Of a DNA stretch of 64,000 nucleotides, positions 2,470 to 60,643 are shown one piece after another (the first letter of the stretch is position 1; every line of letters starts with the position of its first letter). Origin of the DNA: Rhypophila decipiens. Its lineage: Eukaryota > Ascomycota > Sordariomycetes > Sordariales > Naviculisporaceae. The DNA lies in NCBI GenBank assembly GCA_033297075.1, contig MU858169.1:50479-114478 (forward strand), given 5' to 3'. The position numbers and the translations under genes are program-made. The notes beneath the pieces are model-generated. The model saw only the letters and a list, made by a program, of their open reading frames with translations. It made no database searches and was not told where the DNA came from.

Positions 2470-3159
2470 CTAAAGTACAAAGACGGCACCGATAGTGGCA
2501 GCTGCAAGGACGCTTAGCAGAGCCATACCATGCTGGATACCTGCGGTCCCTGCGGAAGTTGGGACGGTAGACACGCCAGATGCTATTGCTCCAGTTTCTG
2601 TAGCAGACTGTGTCGGGGTAGCTGTAGCTGGTCCATCGCAGTGCCAGTGGTCACCGTGGGCAACGCAGCCGACAGACCCGGTGGGACTGGGCTTGATGGC
2701 GGCATCGTCATCGTGGTCATCGTGGTCGTCGTCGTGATGTTCGTGATCATCATCGTGATCTTCGTGGTCGTCGTGGTCATGATCGTGATCTGGGTGAGCG
2801 GGCGCGGATGTGACGGCTGGTGGCGGAGTAGTGAGCCTCGATCTCAATAAAGTCGACGGGGAGACCGTTATTGACGTCACGCGCGGTCCATCGCAGTGCC
2901 TTGACGTAGGGGGCGCGGCTGTTAGTCTCGATTTCTCGTGGAGGCGTTACCCGCCTGCCGGTAGACGCTCCCGTGGGACGGGCTCGGTTTCAAACTGTCA
3001 GGCAGATCGGCTAACTTACCAGTGGTCGCCGTGTGCTTCACATCCGACGGACTGGGTAGGTGAAGGTGCCAGGCTGGCGGTGCCAACCGAGCCTTGGCCA
3101 AGCGCGAGCGGCAGGAGGCCGACGAGCAGAGTGATACAAGCCTGGGAAGCGGTCTTCAT
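2470..3159 (-). CDS. small secreted His/Asp-rich protein, probably GPI-anchored, two CxxHGDHWHC motifs
   Basis: Two exons, 3159-3020 and 2899-2470, separated by a 120-base intron (donor GTAAGT, acceptor CAAG), give 189 residues. Residues 1-21 form a signal peptide (MKTASQACITLLVGLLPLALG). Two copies of a C-x2-HGDHWHC-x-GP motif start at C40 and C125. Between them, residues 84-112 are almost entirely His, Asp and Glu. The last 20 residues are hydrophobic after a small-residue stretch, as in a GPI signal. The composition suggests binding of zinc or another divalent metal at the cell surface. It diverges from a ZIP transporter that carries the same type of motif, so a joint role in metal capture is likely. 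I know of no gene name. The splice is supported because it restores the motif exactly (codon for W47 split TG|G). Confidence 0.8.
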
Positions 3160-4483
3160 CTTGTCGGAATGGCAACTTATGGTTCGGCTTTCTCAGCTTG
3201 ATGGGCTTGATGGGCTTGATGGGCTGGCTGGAGAGAGACGAGTGACAAGGGCAGAACAGAGAACGGGTGGCTTGCATGAAGAATTTAAGCGTTGATGAAT
3301 AACCGAAAGTTGCCTGTAAGCCTCCTCCACCCGAGCCGACCCGTCGGGATGCATCCTGATATTGTGCGCTGCTCGTCCTGGCATGGCGACGGGGCCTATA
3401 ACTCGGTTCGCCATGGACCTTGACGGCTTCAATCGTCACAATGCCAAGGCAGACTCGCTTCCAGGTGCTCCTAGAATTGATAGCTGCGTTGCAAGGGAGA
3501 GGAACCAGTGGGTATACAATGATCGGCGATCAACGGCAGCAGACGCATGTTTGTTCTTTTGTGTGGTGGGCTCATCATCCATAAGCCGATGGATCCTTTC
3601 ATAGCTTGGAAGCGCGTGGGATTTTCGCATGGCAGCCAATATCATCTCCGTCTTGTCACACAACATGTGGCCGGGACTCGGCGGCCATTCACGCAAATTA
3701 CAATGATTGTCACTGCTAGAAATCCATACGTAAGGCCCGTAAAGGTTCTTTTTGTGGAGCTCCAACGAGGAATATGCCGGTCGCCTATCACGGACTTGGC
3801 AGGTGTAACTTGATGTCCAGCGCGGAAAGCGTGGATGGACCCATCCGATGATGTCTTAGACTCCACTCTCGGTTCGGCGCCAAGACCCCGCCCAGAGAAA
3901 ATTCGGAAGAAAAAGGGGCGGGCTGACAAGTGCCAAGAGGCGTCTTGGTTGGCTGCACAATCAATAGGCGGCATGGCGTGGCCCTCAAGGTTCTCAGGGC
4001 CATCAAGGTTCACCCGACTGCGACTACCAGTCGGTCCAGTCTGCCACTCGATCCAATCGAGATGGATTTCTGCCAGATTGCGCACATTTCGTCCCCAATG
4101 CAATTCATCCCACTGTTTCCACTGTGCCCACGTCCATGACTGCGACAAGGATCCCACGGTCATAACCCCCCCGCTGCTCCTCCTCAATGCTGATTTTCTT
4201 CCATCGAGGTTCTCAGCTTGTCACTCTTCCAGCCCCTGCCACCGAACAATCCATCATTTTTAAGAAGACCATAACCCCTCGCATTCCCACCACCGGCCCG
4301 TTCCGTTGGATGTACTTTTGATATCCATTTCCACTAACCGGGACAGCATTTTGGTCATTCTGGAATTGTTTCATATTTATTTATAATTAAAGTGGTGACC
4401 GTTCGACCAAGTGCCCCATAGCATCATCAGGGGCGTAGCGCCATTTTATTTCGTCATCGTTCTATCCCATATCAACATCAAGA
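3160..4483. promoter_or_regulatory. shared divergent promoter region of the His-rich and ZIP genes
   Basis: 1.3 kb between two divergent starts with no convincing ORF. TCAAGGTTC occurs twice as a direct repeat, at 3985-3993 and 4003-4011, 18 bases apart. Each contains AAGGT, the half-site of the Zap1 element. A third related AGGTTCTC lies near 4207. Regulation by a Zap1/ZafA-type zinc-finger factor is an inference from motif and gene content. Confidence 0.4.
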
Positions 4484-6186
4484 ATGGTCCACATCGGACA
4501 GACGGTCAGCCTCTATGGCTTGTTTGGCCTCGCCATACTCGGATCTGTCAACGGCCACCCGCACCCGACGCCAGAAGAAATAACCGATTGCCACCTGGAG
4601 GATTCTCAAATGTGAGCTTCCTACTCTCAACCGTCATACATCTTACCTTGTTCTGGAAGCTGACGATTATTCAGACATTGTGTGGCTGGCTCAGAGGAGT
4701 ACATTGTCAAGTTCACTCCCAGCTCCCCCAACGACATTCCAACGTCCTTCAGTGGCTGCCATGAGCATGGTGCCTCATTGTGAGTTCCCAAAGTACATGT
4801 CGACCCACCTGTCGACCTCCTTGCTGACGCATCCATCAGATTTTGCCAAGGGCCAGATGGTTCAGATGTCTCGGTAGTTGTGGCGCACGATCATGACCAT
4901 GAGGACGACCATGAGCATGAGCATGAAGAAGACCACGACCATGAGGACGACCATGAAGGTCATGAGCACGGCGATGAGGAAGCCGGCACCGAAGTTGAAG
5001 AGTCCACTGAAGGCCTCAGCTGCCACTTCCATGCTGGAGTAGAGTAAGTACATTCGATCATTCTTCCATTTCGTCACAGTGACTTACACATATCAACAGA
5101 CACTGCACTGGTGGAGACGCAGAAACCAGACAAAACACCTGCTCGCGCGTCCAACGTGACTACAACATCCCTCTCCGGATTGGGCTCATTTTCGCCATGC
5201 TTGCTACCAGCACGCTCGGCGTCTATCTTCCCATATTCGCAGTCTCCTTCATGAGGCCGGAGCACATCGTCTTCACAGTCCTGCGGCAGTTCGGCACCGG
5301 TGTCATCATCTCAACTGCGTTCGTCCACCTCTTCACGCACGCGAACCTGATGTTCCAAAACGAATGTCTCGGAGACAGAATCCAATATGAGTCGACGGCG
5401 GCCGTGCTTCTTATGGCAGGTCTCTTCTTGTCTTTCATGATCGAGTATGCCGGTGTGCGTCTGGTTCAGTGGCACCGCGCCAAGTCGGCCTCTAAGAGCG
5501 TCGAGGACTCGTCAGATGGAGCTTCCCTGCAGAAGGTGAACACGTTGAGCGCGGAGATGATTAACATTTATGTTCTCGAGGCGGGCATCATATTCCATTC
5601 GTTCCTCATTGGCCTCACCCTTGTGGTATCGGGAGATGCCTTCTTTATCACCCTGTTCATCGTTGTCGTCTTCCATCAGTTCTTTGAGGGACTTGCTCTG
5701 GGCACACGCATTGCTGCGCTGGGACTCACACCTCGTGCTGCACTTCCATTGCCCGGGACCGGACACAGCCATGGGCATCACCATGACCACGTTCAGGTGA
5801 CGCATAAAGAGTCCTCTCCAGTGATTGAACAATCACCATCAGAGAGGACTCTGAGCAACGAGAGCGAGGTGACACCGACGGTATCGTTCACCAAGAAGGT
5901 TATCCTCGCGGCCTTGTTTGCTTTCGTCACACCAGCGGGCATGGCTCTTGGCACCGGGATCCTGGGTCACTTCAACGGAAATAATCCGGCCACGCTGATC
6001 GCCATCGGCACTTTGGATGCTTTCTCGGCTGGTATTCTCGTGTGGGTTGGCGTCGTCGAGATGTGGGCTCAAGACTGGATGTTGGGTGGCGAGCTGACCA
6101 ACGCACGCCCCGTCAAGACAATCCTAGGACTAGGAGGGTTGATCATGGGTATGACCTTGATGAGCTTGCTAGGGAAATGGGCTTGA
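4484..6186 (+). CDS. ZIP family zinc/iron transporter with three N-terminal C-x8-C modules
   Basis: Four exons (4484-4611, 4675-4779, 4840-5043, 5100-6186) give 507 residues. A signal-like hydrophobic start is followed by a Cys/His-rich outer region. C-x8-C modules start at C36, C71 and C139, with a His/Asp/Glu tract at about residues 95-130 between the second and third. The ZIP membrane domain follows from about residue 165. It shows the hallmark HSFLIGLTL in TM4 and HQFFEGLALG in TM5, where His and Glu line the metal path. The TM3-TM4 loop is short, and a HSHGHHHDH cluster lies in a cytoplasmic loop. Family knowledge says such proteins import Zn2+ (or Fe2+) across the plasma membrane. Introns 1, 2 and 3 all split the eighth residue of a C-x8-C module in phase 2. 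Substrate is inferred from the family; the exon calls are strong because every junction keeps the frame. Confidence 0.9.
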
Positions 6187-22568: not shown

Positions 22569-25500
22569 TCACCTCAAACCTCCAGCACCCTTCTCTACAA
22601 CAAATAGCACCGGTTTGCGGGACCGAGGAGCGTGCCCCCTGGGGGGTATCACGGGCCTCAATACGGGGCCGCCCCCCAGAAGCTTTCCGAATACTCGCGA
22701 TCTCGATCCGGCGACGATTATTCCGTCACCAACTCCACCCGGCCCAATCTTACCCCCGGGAGATGGGGCCGGCTTGCTGGTCGGACCACTGTCAATCATC
22801 CAAGTTTGGTCCTTTACGTTCTTGCCTCGTTCGTCAAAGCCCCATCTACTCACCCCTCCGCCGACGAGCCATCCGGCCAGATTCTTACATTGGCTAATGT
22901 CGACCCACTCCAGTCGTCCACAACCTTCGAGCACATTTTCGACTCCGTTTCCTGTCACTCGTACACAGCCTCTCACACTCAACCCGCGCAGTTCGTTCAG
23001 GTGAAGGGCAATACAGCCCAGGCTAGCATCGCTAACAGCGCTCCCGCAGAATGCCAATCTCAGCTCCCGCAGCATGGGTAACCCTAGAGCAACCACCTCC
23101 GTCGCTGTATCCGACAATGCGCAACAGAAACTGAGGTCCAAGTGAGTCAGGCTCTTCGCAGCGTTTACCAAGGCGATGATGCTATGGTCCGATAGATATG
23201 TGCAGTCGGCAAGACACAGGTGGGTGAGTTCCGTGAAGTGATACGGGGCCCATGACTGGAAGCCGGCGTCCGTGATGGATGTGCACCGAGTGAGGGAAAG
23301 TGACTCGAGTCGGTTTGAAGCATGCGCTGCCAGATGTGCCATGGATCGGTCGGTGATGTGTTTGCAGTAGGACAGGTTTAGACGGCGAAGGCGAGGACAT
23401 CCTATGACGGTGCCCGGCGGCGGAGGAGCAGGGACTGGATGACCGTTCGGTTTGTCAGACCTCTGCTGATGTTGGGTCCCCCTTCGCGACTTGGCAGCAG
23501 AGCTTGAGATGACCACATTCTTGGCGTTCTCTCGTTGAGGCAGAGTCTCTGGCACCACCCAGCCTACAACCCGGGCCAGAAGATTGTCTCCGACCTTGCG
23601 GCAGTTACTCCAGTCTATTTCTTCGAGACCTTTGGCATTCTCGCTCATTTCCAGGATTTGTCCCGCTGAAACATCCCAAACACTTCGCATCTTCCATATC
23701 TTCACGTTCTTCCCACACAGCCTCCATACCGCCTGAAACCCCTCGTCCGTTATGTGAAAGCAATTGCTGATATCGATCTCGACAGGCCGGAGACCAACAA
23801 ACGGTGCTATTATAGTAGAGAGCGACCAATCCGACACTTTTCGGCTTATCGGGCTCAAATCGACGTGTCTGCAAAGGCTAGGGTTTTGTGTCAGGATGCT
23901 TCGCCAGTTCCGTGACACGGCTCGGAGGCGAATCATTTCAAGCAGATCCAAGTGCTTGAATACGGATGCCAGCACTTCGTCCGGCAAGACGCCCTTCGCA
24001 GCAGTGTCTTCCTGGGCCTGTGTCCTCCAAGGGAGGGTTTTGGCACGCTTGGAAGGAATAGGCGAGTCATCGGAATTTGTCCTGGACACCAATGGTGACG
24101 AGAACTTGAGTGGGCTGCCCTCTTGACCATGTGCCTTGTTTCCGTTTACGATGGTGGAAGAATCGGTCTGGGATGTTGGAGGGGCAAGTGAATTACGTCG
24201 TCGGTTACGTAGATTCTCCATGTCTACACTCAGGAAAGGGTCTGGATCGCTAGGTCCCTGGGTTTCTGGCTCGGTTTTAATGGGAGAGGTTGGTTTCGAT
24301 GGGGTGGTAAAAGTAACTTGTGGCAAAGAGGTTTGCTTCAGAGGTGATGCCGAGTCTTCATCCGACAGAGCATGGCTCTCTGCATCCGGCATATCGACAT
24401 CATTGTCTGACGCTTGGTATCTGTCCCTGGCTGTTGCCTCAACCTGAGATTTGATTTCAGGGGGGCAGCGCTTCCACAGCTCTTCCAGCGCATCACCCCC
24501 GATCATGAGACATTCCACGGCGGTGATAGACCTCACTGTAGCGGTTCTGCCCTCGGAGAGTCCCAGACTGGCCACCTCACCAAAGTATTGTCCTTGCTTT
24601 AATCTGGGGCGGGTCGTGTATGTGGACCTGGTCAAACGCCTGACACTTTTGGGACTTGGTGACTCATGTATGACCTCGGCTTCCCCACGAACAATGAAGA
24701 AAATCTCGTTTCCTGGGCTTCCTTGTTGAACAATGTCGGTAAAGGGTGAGTAGGATTTGGGCTGCGCGCTGAGTCCGAGGAAATGGAGGATGTCGGGTGG
24801 TAATGTAGAGAACAAGGGCAGTTCCTTGAGTGTCTTGCGCACGTTGACGTAACCGCTTCCCAGTGCGCTTCCGCTTATCGTTGGATCTTCGATGATGCCA
24901 GGACTCGGCGACTTTCGCTTTTTCGTGTTGACAACAGTGCCCTCTTTGATAATGCCAACATCTCCGGTACTTACTTCCCCTGGCGCAGCCTCGCGCGCCA
25001 GTTTGGAGCCATTGTTATCCGGTAACCTGCTGGCCTGACCGCCCTCTTGTCGCTTCTTCTTCAGGATCATCAGTCTCTCCTGCGCCTCATGGCGAATCGC
25101 CTTTTCCATGTCGGGGTATTTGGGTAGTTCAGCCTGGAGGTCCTCCTTCTTAAGAACGACCAACAAACATTTGGTCCTAGCAATTATGGTGGCGGTTCGT
25201 GGAATGTCCATGAGAACGCCAATCTCGCCAAAGAAGGCGCCAGGCTTGAGCTCAGCGTACACAGCCTCGCCATCGCGGGAGGTGACGGCGACGACGCCGC
25301 GAACTAGCCAATACATTGCTTTTGCTTCGTCTCCCTCAGTGAGAATGTGGTCGTGGGCGGAATGTATCTGTGGTCGGAGGTGTGCGCCAATGGCAACCAG
25401 AAAGTCCTCGGGGGCCGACATAAAAAGGGGGAAGGATCGAATGCGATCGACAAGGTCAAGCGGCATATCTGGAATGGTCGAAGCCGTCAGCGGCGACGGG

Positions 25501-54269: not shown

Positions 54270-56846
54270 TCAGAATCGTTTCCTTGCCTTCCCGTGTATG
54301 TTTTGCCTCCACAAACAACAAACGCTCTTGCTAAGACACCACAACTTGACTTCTTCGGGATTGACCTCCCCATCGTGCCCCACCCGATCCAGTTGGCCTG
54401 CGTTCAACCACGCTGTGAGATCCTCCAGAATGACAGGATCGTACATGAGCATCTTCTCATACCAAGAAGGTTCTGCTGGATTTCTGGTCCGCGGTGCAGT
54501 CGTAACTGCCTTTGTAATGCGGCTGAACAGCACCGTCTGTTCCGTGCTTGGACCTTCCATTGCCAGCAGAGAGGCATCCTCCGTGTCGTCGCTGACCGAA
54601 ACATCCATTGCTTCGTGGGCATCATCTGAAAACACATCCTCTTTGGCCCGAGCTGAGACCGGCGATGAGAAAAATGGGTCCTCCGAATCAGAGGCATCCG
54701 AATCCGCTATCTCGACAACTGCCCGTGAAGCCGTCGCAGCCTTGGTCCGCTTGGGAGTAGTAACAGTTGGCACCGAGGTCGATTCGGTGGAAGCTGCCGC
54801 AGGTTTGGTCGTTTTGCGTGGTCTCCCTTTGGGCTTGGCAGCCGTTTTGGTCTTGGATGTGGCATCATCAGTGGCCGAATCCAGAAGGGTTGCTTTCTGT
54901 TTGTTGTCCCAACATTTCTCCAAGAGGGCAATCATCGCCTCCCTCTTCTTCACTGGCTTGAACCCATATGCCGATATCTCCTTGGCCAACTTCGCATCAG
55001 TGTAAAGCTCATATTTTGGGCGTTGAGGCATACTGGCTTGTGGCCTTTCAGGTGAGGCTTGTGCCTGAGACTGTGCAATAAGTCGGTGGTGTTCCTGGTT
55101 ACTTGGTGGCGGTTCAAAATCCGAATCAACCGTAAGATGGACTTGAACGGACTCCGCTGGGATAGGCGGAGTATGCACCTTTGATGCGGCTGATTTCCCA
55201 GCGCCGGTCGCTGCTGTCGGCGCAGCGAACAAAAGAGCCTTGGGTGCCGTTGGAAGGGCAGGGCTTTCCGTGAGATCGAAACTGTCAAAGTCGGACGACA
55301 GGATCTCGATGGGGATTTTCGGAGCTGACGCTTGCCCGGCTACAGCCTTTTCTGTGTCCAGGACTGAGAGCTGGGGAAGTGGGTAATCACTCGCCGCCAC
55401 CGGGGAACCTGTTAGGTCGAGAGGCTCCAGGTCTAACAGGTCACCGTCATCATCTCTGGCGCCAGCTGTCCAAAGTTTACCTCCCGCTTTCCTCCGACGA
55501 GCAATTTCACTCTGAATGGGACTGGACGAGGCAAATGGATCCCTATCTGGATGGTTGGACTCTTTCATGGCCTCATGCAAGGCGCGAAAAAGATCGGGGT
55601 CGTCTTCTGTAGCCAGTTGACTGGCTGTACCGAATACAAAGTCTTGACCAGAAACCTGCTTCAGTGCGCTGGCTGGTGAAAGAAGAATTTGTTTCTTCGG
55701 TTCCGCTTTCTTTTTGGAAGCTTTTGCTTTTGCCGGTTTCTTCGCTGTTTTGGACGCGCCACCCGCCCCTTTACCGGTTTCCTTGCCGGGGCCCTCGACT
55801 TCAAAATAATTTAACACAGACTCCTTCCTGGCCTTTTCTGTGGGAGCCAAATCTTCGTTCTCTTCAACAGGACGGTATGCTGCCATGGCCAGGTCCGTAA
55901 TCGTGCGTGGTTTCTTTTTGGGCGCCTTTGACTTCGCTTGCGATGTCTCCGGTGTCGTGGTCTTGCTCGTTTTGGTTGCCACTAGCTCAATGAGCTTCCT
56001 TTTCCCCAGAATATCGTTATTTGATGGACCAGCTATTGTCGAAGCGTTGATCTGGCCGTCGTCCATCTTGTCATTGTAGCCACCCAGGAGGTTCTTGAAT
56101 GAGTCCTGCAACTCTGGTTCCTGTGACAGTACCGAATCTTCCAAGTTGATGGTGATCTTCTCCGGGGGTGGAGTCCAGTCCAATCTCCTTCGTATTGCCT
56201 GTTCTTGGTCAATAGGCTCATCGTCAAGTTTACTGGTCGCAGGCTCTGCCGGCACTGTGGACGGAGCTGGATTGGCAAAGTGTCTGCTAACAGTTTCCGC
56301 TTTCTTTCGTGTCTTCTTTTCCTTTGGCGCAGCTTTGGTGACCTTCCCCTTTGGTATTGTGGTCTGCGCCTCTTTCTGCTGCTCAGTTGCGCCTTTCGGT
56401 CTCCCGCGTCGCTTGGGAGCAGGTTTGGATTCCGCAGTTACGGCATCAACCAGCGGCTGCGGCGGCGGCGGCTCGGCTTCTCCTTCACCACTCTTCTTGC
56501 TCTTCTTCGCAGTTGTACCCGTCGCCCTTTTCTTCCGTGGTTTCTTCTCGTCGCTTTCAGATGCCTTCGATCCGGGGTCGACTGGCTCTGGTATCCCGTC
56601 GGCTTTTGAGACCATGTCTTTCGCGCTCACGTCTATAGGTTCGTCGTCAACGAGCTCTTGCCCCGGATGGAGTGATTTCCACAGATTTGTGGCGGTCATG
56701 AAAGAACTTGGCGCATTGTCGGGAATCGCGGCGGCATTCTTGCCGCTTCGGAGGGTAGTTCTTTTGGGCGATTTGGCAAGCAGTTGGTGGATCGAAGGGA
56801 ATTCGGGAGACGACGAAATGACCACAACAGAGTCATCTTGGGCCAT
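54270..56846 (-). CDS. slx4: structure-specific endonuclease subunit SLX4
   Basis: A single exon of 858 residues from ATG at 56846-56844 (MAQDDSVVVISSSPEFPS, as in other fungal SLX4 proteins). The open frame continues upstream for 39 codons but has no ATG there. Most of the protein is disordered, Lys/Pro/Ser-rich, with RRGRPKG and RPRKTTK AT-hook-like clusters. A SAP-like helix pair (LAKEISAYGFKPVKKREAMIALLEKCW, written here only as a guide to about residues 620-650) lies in the C-terminal half. The last 75 residues form the Slx4 C-terminal domain: MLMYDPVILEDLTAWL, EEVKLWCLSKSVCCLW and KARKRF. That domain binds the SLX1 nuclease, and the complex resolves branched DNA in the nucleus. The SLX1 gene is not in the window. 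Confidence 0.93.
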   Translation of the reverse strand: MAQDDSVVVISSSPEFPSIHQLLAKSPKRTTLRSGKNAAAIPDNAPSSFMTATNLWKSLHPGQELVDDEPIDVSAKDMVSKADGIPEPVDPGSKASESDEKKPRKKRATGTTAKKSKKSGEGEAEPPPPQPLVDAVTAESKPAPKRRGRPKGATEQQKEAQTTIPKGKVTKAAPKEKKTRKKAETVSRHFANPAPSTVPAEPATSKLDDEPIDQEQAIRRRLDWTPPPEKITINLEDSVLSQEPELQDSFKNLLGGYNDKMDDGQINASTIAGPSNNDILGKRKLIELVATKTSKTTTPETSQAKSKAPKKKPRTITDLAMAAYRPVEENEDLAPTEKARKESVLNYFEVEGPGKETGKGAGGASKTAKKPAKAKASKKKAEPKKQILLSPASALKQVSGQDFVFGTASQLATEDDPDLFRALHEAMKESNHPDRDPFASSSPIQSEIARRRKAGGKLWTAGARDDDGDLLDLEPLDLTGSPVAASDYPLPQLSVLDTEKAVAGQASAPKIPIEILSSDFDSFDLTESPALPTAPKALLFAAPTAATGAGKSAASKVHTPPIPAESVQVHLTVDSDFEPPPSNQEHHRLIAQSQAQASPERPQASMPQRPKYELYTDAKLAKEISAYGFKPVKKREAMIALLEKCWDNKQKATLLDSATDDATSKTKTAAKPKGRPRKTTKPAAASTESTSVPTVTTPKRTKAATASRAVVEIADSDASDSEDPFFSSPVSARAKEDVFSDDAHEAMDVSVSDDTEDASLLAMEGPSTEQTVLFSRITKAVTTAPRTRNPAEPSWYEKMLMYDPVILEDLTAWLNAGQLDRVGHDGEVNPEEVKLWCLSKSVCCLWRQNIHGKARKRF

Positions 56847-57413
56847 TTTGGCGGAAGCCGAGAGCACGCTGCTGGGCGCGGATAGTTTTGACCGTTTGGA
56901 CCTCTTCACCACAGGAGGGCCTCTACTCGCGGCGTTCCCCAGTCGCCAAGGCAGAGAAAGCAACGAAGACTGCTTCAGGGCGGCGGTTTAAGCGACAAGG
57001 GAGAACCACAATGTAGGCAACATGAGATTGAGCGATTCAGTCGATCGTATTTCGTCGCGAGTCTGTCGTCGCAATCTGGAATGGCGGGGCTTCACAGGAT
57101 GGCCAAAACAACATTGTCCCATCCCGTTGCACAAAAGGTGGAGCCTTCACTCGAATTGGGCCAGTCTCGTCGCATCACGAATCTGTCGCGTAGTCACATG
57201 ATCCTGCACATGAGAGCGCCCCACTTCCAGCAAACGGCAAGATGTCGAAAGAAGTGGGCCCGTGCCCAGCCCACACAGACTGGGGCTTATCCCACCAAAT
57301 CTACCAAAATCATCGAAATTCTGATTTGACCGAAATCCTGTGCCAGTTTTCCGCTCTCCAACCCGACAACACCACAAATCGTCACTTAGCAGCACCCATC
57401 TCAAGCCGCAAAA
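56847..57413. promoter_or_regulatory. divergent promoter region of slx4 and the eS21 gene
   Basis: 567 bases between the starts of two housekeeping genes in divergent orientation. The side near the ribosomal protein gene is CA-rich leader sequence. No specific site recognised. Confidence 0.5.
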
Positions 57414-58499: not shown

Positions 58500-58548
58500 G
58501 ATCGGTCTCGATGGCTAGGCCATGATGACGTTTGGCGATCGAGCGATC
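58500..58548. promoter_or_regulatory. GATC-rich cluster resembling a blue-light response element
   Basis: GATCGG at 58500-58505 and the paired GATCGAGCGATC at 58537-58548 lie 140-190 bases before the photolyase start. GATCGA-type and paired GAT-CGAT sites are what the White Collar photoreceptor complex binds in Neurospora. Photolyase genes are common light-induced targets, so the link is plausible but is only a motif match. Confidence 0.4.
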
Positions 58549-58690
58549 AGCACTCACAAAGGGATCGCGTTTGCGCATACATCATTTCAGCCATCGATTC
58601 TCGTGTTCTTTCCATTTCGTCTTTTCTCTCATTCCTCCGTGTATAAGTTACCCACCAAGTGTCTGGAAACCTCTTCCAATCTCTTTGCAA

Positions 58691-60643
58691 ATGGTTCGTC
58701 AAAGGGTCGTAGCCCCCGTCACGCATAAGCTCGCGACAATGACTGTCAACGGCACCGCCTCCAAAAGGGGCATCGTCCATTCCAATAGCAATGGTGTGAG
58801 TGGCATGCACAATGCCAACGAAAGCAGCAGTCCCGACCAGAAGAGACGTAAAACCACACACGACGATCGAGCTCCCGATCCCAAATCGACCGAAGATCCC
58901 CTCCGCGCTCCCCATCCCTTTTTCGCAGATTCTCAAAACCATGGCATCGTCCTCCGCAAGTACTACCCACATGAGATGTCCAATGCCCGCGCGAGAGCAT
59001 ATGTCACCAACCAGATCCCGCGGCCGATCGAGCTGCTCAACTCTGCGCTGGCCGCCACGTCTGCTGTGCGGAAGAATATACAAGTGCAGGATGCCGTCGT
59101 GCACTGGTTCAAGATGGACCTCCGGACGAGCGACAACCGCGCGTTATTCTTGGCAAGTGAGAAGGCGCGGGAGGCTGGTGTGCCGCTGATTGCGATGTAT
59201 ATCGTCAGCCCGCAGGACTTTGAGGCCCATTTGACGGCGCCGGTACGGGTGGATTTTATGCTTCGGACGCTAGGTGTTCTGAAGGAGGATCTGGCGAAAC
59301 TGGATATCCCGCTCTGGGTGGAAACGGTGGAGAAACGGAAGAACATTCCCAGCAGAATCGTAGAGCTGATGAAAGACTGGGGAGCTAGGCATTTGTTCGC
59401 CAACATGGAGTATGAGGTTGACGAACTACGCCGTGAGGCGGACCTTGTTCGGTCTTTTGCAGCGAATGGGATTGCAGTTGAGGTGGTACATGATACTTGT
59501 GTTGTGCCACCGGGCCAGCTGAAGACAGGGACCGGCAAGCAATATGCTGTCTACACTCCGTGGTTCCGCTCTTGGATCGGCCACGTACACGGGAACCCGG
59601 ATCTGCTGGAGCTTTCAGATGGACCTGCGCCCAATTCAGGGTCCGCAAGGATACGTTTCGCGAAATTATTCGAGTGCCAGATTCCCCCAGCACCAGACAA
59701 CAAGAAGTTGAGTGAAGAGGACGCGAAGAGAAGCCGGGCTTTATTCCCAGCTGGCGAACACGAGGCGCTCAAGAGGCTCTCCAAATTCTGTGACGCAGAC
59801 ATTTCTGGGTATGGAAAGCATCGCAATATCCCATCAATGCCCGGCACATCCAATCTTTCGGTTCATTTTGCAAGTGGCACCCTCAGCGCCAGGACAGCGG
59901 TGCGCACTGCCCGTGACAGGAACAACACCAAGAAGTTAAACGGCGGCAATGAAGGGATACAAACATGGATAAGTGAAGTGGCATGGCGAGACTTCTACAA
60001 ACATGTCCTAGTCCATTGGCCATATGTTTGGTAAGTAGCCATCATCGTCCTCACAGTCCAAGCTTATTCGCCTGGTGACCTAACCTCGCTGTCCAGTATG
60101 AACAAACCCTTCAAACCGGAATACTCCAACATAGAATGGTCTTACAACATGGAGCAGTTCGAGGCCTGGACCCAGGGCAAAACCGGGTACCCCATTGTCG
60201 ACGCCGCCATGCGCCAGATGCACTCCATCGGCTGGATGCACAACCGATGCCGCATGATTGTTGCTTCCTTCCTGGCAAAAGACCTGCTCCTCGACTGGCG
60301 GATGGGCGAGAAGTACTTTATGGAACACCTCATCGACGGTGACTTTGCGAGCAACAATGGCGGCTGGGGATTTGCTGCTTCTGTAGGCGTTGATCCCCAG
60401 CCGTATTTTAGAATCTTCAATCCTCTTTTGCAGAGCGAAAAGTTTGATCCTGACGGAGAGTATATACGGAAGTGGATCCCCGAGCTGAGAGGGATCGAGG
60501 GCAAGGCGATACATGAACCGTATGCCCGTGGGGCTGGAGGTCTAGCCCAAAGGGCGGGATATCCGAGGCCGATTGTTGAACATAAAGGGGCTAGAGAGCG
60601 GGCGTTGGCGGCCTACAAGAAGGGACTGGAGAGTAACTTCTAA
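58691..60643 (+). CDS. phr1: CPD-type deoxyribodipyrimidine photolyase
   Basis: Two exons (58691-60030, 60097-60643; TG|T splits a Cys codon in WPYVCMNKP) give 628 residues. About 110 residues form a Lys/Ser-rich leader; an alternative ATG is at 58739. The photolyase N-terminal domain (QDAVVHWFKMDLRTSDNRAL, about 137-156) is followed by the FAD domain with VAWRDFYKHVL, TGYPIVDAAMRQM, WMHNRCRMIVASFL and SNNGGWGFAASVGVDPQPY. These are class I CPD photolyase blocks; the WFK and MHNR motifs and the NGGWQW-like stretch contact FAD and the lesion. Uses blue light to split cyclobutane pyrimidine dimers, in nucleus and possibly mitochondria given the basic N-terminus. Confidence 0.94.

Follow-up and report, generated by a model that had tools for sequence, protein, structure and literature searches.

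The divergent gene pair described here is probably a zincophore-type locus, in which a zinc importer of the Zrt1/ZrfC class lies head-to-head with a small wall protein that is not Pra1 and shares an intron-split hairpin module with the importer. The pair occupies positions 2470–6186 of the analyzed 64,000-nucleotide stretch of Rhypophila decipiens contig MU858169.1 (in the following: the window), with the ZIP importer gene on the plus strand and the gene of a small His/Asp-rich protein on the minus strand. The source assembly comprises 45.7 Mb in 408 contigs. What is new at this locus is the intron signature, the route of exon duplication, and a partner unrelated to Pra1. Judging by relatives, such a gene pair may be widespread.

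Gene models and the shared intron site

The importer gene is spliced in frame, and the encoded ZIP protein matches PF02535 (E = 2e-36). Approximately 165 amino acids precede its first membrane helix, and this long N-terminus contains, in the module starting at C139, the CHFHAGVEHC site that is a trait of the Zrt1/ZrfC class. Over its full length, the small protein matches a deposited R. decipiens sequence, QBC37DRAFT_29303 (P0001), with 100% identity, and it carries the precomputed Pfam label PF28209. Judged by eye, it possesses a signal peptide and a hydrophobic tail of the glycosylphosphatidylinositol (GPI) type, and it is probably GPI-anchored.

Splicing both genes reproduced the five modules proposed in an earlier note on this DNA, which start at C36, C71, and C139 in the ZIP protein and at C40 and C125 in the small protein. 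Four of the five fit the pattern C-x2-H-[G/A]-x4-C-x-G-[P/G], and the C36 module (CHLEDSQIHC) has Glu for His. As had also been claimed, all four introns of the pair cut after the second base of the codon for module residue 8 (I43, L78, E146, and W47), and the C125 module of the small protein is the sole uncut one. The note had considered coincidence unlikely, and our estimates agree. Under a null model of uniformly distributed sites, the chance that three introns sit at the same relative site of three modules within the 165-residue ZIP N-terminus is ~3e-6 when any of 60 positions relative to the module may be the common one. For the single intron of the small gene, the chance of falling at the ZIP site in either of its modules is ~0.0035. 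The junction bases differ between the introns (AT^A, TT^A, and GA^A in the ZIP gene and TG^G in the small gene; ^ marks the cut), which makes a common proto-splice word or insertion target an unlikely explanation of the shared site; proto-splice insertion was ruled out as its cause on these grounds.

The donor pattern C-x2-H-[G/A]-x2-NN^GTRAG occurs 19 times in the assembly versus 10 times in a backwards-read control, and three of the 19 matches fall in the ZIP/small-protein locus. Among the 16 matches outside the locus, the one inspected by eye (L024 on contig C145) was rejected as a cytochrome P450. In the genome, HGDHWHC and CHFHAGVE each have a single exact match at the DNA level, in both cases at this locus; all 13 near matches to either module, with up to two mismatches, look like chance. 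No such module was present at the eight other places in the genome that match PF02535 (L001–L007 and L047), where two rows were noise.

Table 1 Features of the divergent gene pair in window coordinates. Sequences are given in the one-letter code, and ^ marks the intron position.
Feature	Position	Strand	Remark
ZIP zinc transporter gene, Zrt1/ZrfC class	4484-6186	+	spliced in frame, 507 aa
ZIP exons	4484-4611, 4675-4779, 4840-5043, 5100-6186	+	in-frame splicing
ZIP module A	4589-4690	+	C36-G48, CHLEDSQI^HCVAG; contains intron 1
ZIP intron 1	4612-4674	+	63 bases, phase 2, cuts I43 (module residue 8)
ZIP module B	4757-4855	+	C71-P83, CHEHGASL^FCQGP; contains intron 2
ZIP intron 2	4780-4839	+	60 bases, phase 2, cuts L78 (module residue 8)
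ZIP terminal module	5021-5115	+	C139-G151, CHFHAGVE^HCTGG; contains intron 3
ZIP intron 3	5044-5099	+	56 bases, phase 2, cuts E146 (module residue 8)
Small His/Asp-rich surface protein gene	3159-2470	-	exons 3159-3020 and 2899-2470; 189 aa
Small-protein module 1	2884-3042	-	C40-P52, CEAHGDHW^HCDGP; contains the small-gene intron
Small-gene intron	3019-2900	-	120 bases, phase 2, cuts W47 (module residue 8)
Small-protein module 2	2629-2667	-	C125-P137, CVAHGDHWHCDGP; uncut
Region between start codons	3160-4483		candidate shared promoter
CAAGGT core	3417-3422	-	
CAAGGT core	3986-3991	+	
CAAGGT core	4004-4009	+	
Candidate metal-binding peptides			CEAHGDHWHCDGP, CHEHGASLFCQGP, CHFHAGVEHCTGG

Module number and intron signatures in ZIP relatives

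A search with ZIP residues 26–240 matched 509 proteins, of which the best 120 were examined. Including the terminal module, these contained two modules in three proteins, three in 31, four in eight, five in 68, six in seven, seven in two, and nine in one. In the commonest spacing patterns, 35 residues alternate with a longer distance (49/120 and 26/120 of the listed ZIPs). The modules are thus arranged as A-B pairs with CHFHAGVEHC after them, which suggests that a unit of two modules was duplicated. By eye, P0222 contains three similar A-B units in tandem.

Profile searches gave no confirmed relative DNA (the small-family alignment yielded one stretch fitting the pattern in viral contigs and 26 stretches in genome contigs, none of them confirmed), and the intron sites of relatives were therefore read from unspliced open reading frames (ORFs) in the protein database. 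In such an ORF, a phase-2 cut of the form GA^GTRAGT leaves Glu followed by a stop, and an acceptor AG^N is read as Arg or Ser, after which the coding sequence continues. With the ZIP segment before the last cut as query, we obtained 257 proteins at E ≤ 10 (candidates of ~37–119 amino acids) and examined the best 120. The last module was present in all of them, and 120/120 were cut at its residue 8, 91 ending exactly there and 29 continuing into non-module letters; this set was selected for being cut, so that it gives no measure of genes without the intron. In these ORFs, residue 8 of the half-modules lying upstream was Arg (55), Ser (14), or Leu (2), with 10 further rows outside the half-module pattern dropped. 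Both Leu rows and one Arg row (P0288) were by eye uncut modules with an extra residue or noise, and after their removal Arg or Ser stood at residue 8 in 68/68 upstream half-modules.

The range of two to nine modules and the recurrence of the same intron in unspliced relatives uphold the proposal of the earlier note that an intron-split module was duplicated in the transporter. Its description of the module as tripled applies to one state of several, as three modules are less frequent than five among the listed ZIPs.

The small-protein family

A search with the small protein yielded 126 matches, the best 120 of which were examined. The precomputed PF28209 label was present on 118/120 of them, and the R. 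decipiens protein is homologous to labelled members with repeated C-x2-H-G-D-H-W-H-C modules. Judging by their names, the listed members presumably belong to Sordariomycetes, Orbiliomycetes, Eurotiomycetes, lichen fungi, and others. The consensus of the family module is C-E-P-H-G-D-H-W-H-C-[D/E]-G-P. Two pattern matches were found in 58 of the listed proteins, one in 32, three in 22, four in five, and none in three. Of the 234 pattern-matched modules, 233 retain His7 and 221 retain His9; His4, a position at which the pattern admitted H, E, or Q, is present in all 234.

The intron signature recurs in this family, in which the cut of unspliced members mostly falls at the same Trp. Fourteen half-modules had Arg before H-C, as the TG^G junction predicts, and three ORFs (P0083, P0088, and P0094) stop at the Trp of the second small module. 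Six further ORFs read directly past the Trp; P0070 and P0077 among these are deposited gene models. Three rows were set aside as uncut, namely the truncated start of P0052, the gene model P0108, and a row of noise in P0120. Apart from two relatives consistent with phase 1, a gene model that disagrees, and numerous uncut modules, this indirect check found no motif-bearing homologues whose introns sit at unrelated positions. 

Among the matches listed are members from Paracoccidioides brasiliensis and three species of Neurospora (N. intermedia, N. tetrasperma, and N. hispaniola); none from N. crassa or Histoplasma was among the best 120 of 126 matches. The family member PADG_03277 (P0074) has been tabulated as secreted, and its Blastomyces ortholog as induced in vivo (PMC5040785); ZRT1, like PRA1, is also induced there during mouse infection (PMC4595289). 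In the literature searched, in which subscription journals were sparsely covered, we found no description of the small module and no report of the ZIP/small-protein pairing or of the intron pattern.

Co-location of the two genes

Record lengths and locus names were compared by hand between the lists of 120 small proteins and 120 ZIPs. Besides R. decipiens, 23 species occurred in both lists, and in 21 of these the two genes lie on records of equal length, taken to be one record. Locus numbers were consecutive in seven of the 21, namely Naviculisporaceae PSN 640, Apodospora, Thermothelomyces thermophilus, Chaetomium olivicolor, Colletotrichum jinshuiense, Phialemonium thermophilum, and Staphylotrichum longicolle. 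A shared record of chromosome size without consecutive numbers is weak evidence of pairing, and in three of the 21 species a second copy of one gene lies on another record. The divergent orientation is established for the R. decipiens window.

Predicted structure of the modules

AlphaFold models were inspected for the small protein and for the ZIP relative P0121, which is 92% identical to the window ZIP over the searched part. The N-terminal domain of P0121 was predicted with confidence (pLDDT 93–96 in the blocks covering residues 31–90) and has six strands, arranged as twice a hairpin plus one strand, with module A in strands 32–39 and 42–47 and module B in strands 67–74 and 77–81. Its membrane part matches BbZIP (5tsa; Foldseek, E = 6.7e-5). 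The model of the small protein is largely disordered (mean pLDDT 60.9, pTM 0.26) apart from its two modules, which form hairpins at residues 41–43/46–48 and 126–128/131–133 (blocks with pLDDT 76–86). Each of the five modules is thus predicted to be a beta-hairpin of a common register, with strands at approximately residues 1–4 and 7–10, which places the intron early in the second strand. Sequence searches of solved structures gave no match at E ≤ 0.001 with the ZIP profile and five rows with the small family (best E = 0.11).

Comparison with known zincophore loci

The PRA1-ZRT1 pair of Candida albicans and the aspf2-zrfC pair of Aspergillus fumigatus are syntenic zincophore loci (PMC3386192), and synteny is kept in 61/87 Pra1-positive species among 102 species analyzed (PMC5751234). 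The R. decipiens pair resembles these Pra1/Aspf2-Zrt1 (Zrt101)/ZrfC loci in its divergent partner gene and its extracellular Cys-His sites, and its ZIP protein has the CHFHAGVEHC of C. albicans Zrt1. The zinc role of the ZIP modules is in part known, since the Zrt1 region KKCHFHAGVEHCVDDNNHDA, which contains CHFHAGVEHC, is the likeliest zinc site of that protein, and peptides of this site and of the Aspf2 tail bind zinc through Cys and His, the latter via two Cys and two His (PMC9780748). A. fumigatus ZrfC likewise has a long extracellular N-terminus that contains four putative zinc-binding motifs and has been described as important for virulence (Amich et al., reviewed in PMC4343018); in the passages covered, we found neither the exon unit split by an intron nor the beta domain of paired A and B modules. 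The earlier note had called the arrangement new. This holds for the intron signature and the partner, whereas the ZIP module itself was already known as the Zrt1 site. The PF28209 label fits the homologues of the small protein, and a link of this family to ZIP proteins or to the intron was not found in the papers searched.

Unlike Pra1 and Aspf2, the small protein lacks the HRXXH domain PF13933 (no match at E ≤ 1). The Pra1/Aspf2 homologue of the genome lies elsewhere, on the minus strand of a separate 10-kb contig (L029, C401:3000-10345; PF13933, E = 3.4e-96), and ends with CHTHADGVLHCE, a C-x9-C tail in an uninterrupted ORF. This tail resembles the terminal ZIP module apart from a single inserted residue; the C-terminal motif of Pra1 has been given as CHTHXXGXXHC (PMC12663325).

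As in the aspf2-zrfC promoter, there are three CAAGGT cores between the genes, all less than 1.2 kb from both start codons. By eye, the cores at 3986, 4004, and 3417 have one, two, and one mismatches to the 15-base ZR consensus, respectively. CAAGGT occurs 48 times in the window, with about one copy expected per stretch of intergenic size, and TCAAGGT occurs 15 times, three of them between the start codons versus 0.31 expected. For ZafA, the core is CARGGT, and the divergent promoter of aspf2 and zrfC contains three ZR motifs, which are required in vivo (PMC6070888). The cores are suggestive of Zap1/ZafA-type regulation of the R. decipiens pair.

Proposed origin and function, and alternative explanations

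Exons between the module introns are symmetric (2-2), so that duplicating or moving one adds exactly one module. Both proteins would display a hairpin mini-module (C1-x2-H4-G5-x4-C10), and the DNA that encodes it can be interrupted by a phase-2 intron at residue 8. Such exon duplication or movement probably gave the transporter its multiple modules, and the module of the small protein most likely arose by the same route. Under zinc scarcity, a Zap1/ZafA-type factor acting at the CAAGGT sites would turn on both genes. The His/Asp-rich arm and the Cys-His hairpins of the wall protein could then hold zinc at the wall and hand it over for import to the matching hairpins of the transporter, the last of which lies beside the membrane part.

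His/Asp-rich arms and Cys-His sites in general bind several metals. The small protein might accordingly be a wall-bound buffer or detoxifier of zinc, copper, or nickel that does not feed the transporter, and the Aspf2 tail peptide does bind nickel too (PMC9780748). We consider this unlikely, as both a record shared with a ZIP importer in 21/23 species and the intergenic CAAGGT sites are more in line with starvation than with excess.

Independent origin of the two modules as convergent extracellular Cys-His hairpins under selection for metal binding was weighed against profile comparisons. In this case, the residue-8 intron of the small gene would be an independent gain or a coincidence, and the neighbourhood would be due to co-regulation alone. 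A profile of ZIP A and B modules was built from 192 non-redundant of 407 modules. On this profile, the small consensus gained clearly, with Cys excluded, solely at the Gly before Cys1, His4, Gly5, and Pro13; beyond these positions and Cys1 and Cys10, the profiles of the two module types are neutral or in disagreement. By contrast with the ZIP A/B modules versus the terminal ZIP module (hhalign 67.4), the comparison of ZIP and small modules reached an hhalign probability of 5.3. These weak profile tests and the two phase-1 relatives favor convergence. It is nevertheless improbable in our view, because the same residue and phase, with the named exceptions, recur in many unspliced relatives of both families, the second small module of P0083, P0088, and P0094 ends at the same site, the models share a hairpin register, and the junction bases have no proto-splice word in common. 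From the intron site, the neighbourhood, and the hairpin register we infer a common origin. The claim that the module is shared with the adjacent surface protein stands for an intron-split hairpin of the same register, and common descent does not follow from the sequence profiles.

Alternatively, the Cys pair might form a structural disulfide, with the hairpin serving as a wall or adhesion module and metal binding being incidental. This would suit an extracellular protein (signal peptide by eye) in whose predicted hairpins the two Cys, judged by residue position, occupy opposite strands, but it is quite improbable given the conservation of His4, His7, and His9 and the zinc binding of Zrt1 and Aspf2 peptides through Cys and His (PMC9780748).

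Several observations weigh against a zincophore-type locus with a shared intron-split module, in addition to the selection of the short ZIP ORFs. In the profile comparison, 660, 996, and 1526 of 20,000 shuffles, for three column ranges, equalled or beat the small module, and at least 5/60 column-shuffled controls exceeded the hhalign value, so that homology of the ZIP and small modules is weak and unproven from sequence profiles. The terminal hairpin of P0121 (residues 124–135) reaches a pLDDT of merely 71–72. We counted 22 uncut ZIP modules in the short-ORF set, and P0222 and P0233 have nine and seven modules, respectively, in one open frame on contigs of 11–13 kb; if these contigs are genomic, some lineages seem to be without module introns. 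In the small family, P0099 and P0116 have Gly before the half-module, which fits phase 1, and the gene model P0070 has Leu. The two genes are on different records in Lomentospora prolificans and Fusarium zealandicum (2/23). The CAAGGT core is not rare, with three or more copies in 29/314 window slices of intergenic size. Furthermore, A. udagawae has a small-family member, and Aspergillus is reported to retain Pra1-ZrfC synteny (PMC3386192). R. decipiens retains Pra1 as well, and the small protein is thus no simple replacement of it.

For P0099 and P0116, the junction would lie one base off within the same Trp codon, a possible case of intron sliding.

With these points considered, a zincophore-type locus remains the explanation that we regard as probable. 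It is also possible, albeit tentative, that the small proteins form a second, Pra1-unrelated class of zincophore-like proteins, built from the intron-bounded receptor module of the transporter, retained next to it, and feeding Zrt1/ZrfC, notably where PRA1 is reported lost (Neurospora and Paracoccidioides). PRA1 is lost in N. crassa (PMC5751234) and reported absent from Histoplasma and Paracoccidioides (PMC4595289, PMC7734293); for Histoplasma, the lack of a zincophore is a suggestion from in silico analysis (PMC7734293). Several fungi reported to be without PRA1 keep a Zrt1/ZrfC importer, and the small protein is a direct candidate for its partner there. The intron-split hairpin is moreover a clear example of a fungal repeat domain built from symmetric phase-2 exons, and possibly also one of module transfer to a neighbouring gene.

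Other features of the window

On the minus strand, one open frame at 22572–25694 matches cyclic-nucleotide-binding, F-box, and leucine-rich-repeat domains. Domain matches to the Slx4 endonuclease (54273–56987, minus strand) and to DNA photolyase (58529–60031, plus strand) lie close together.

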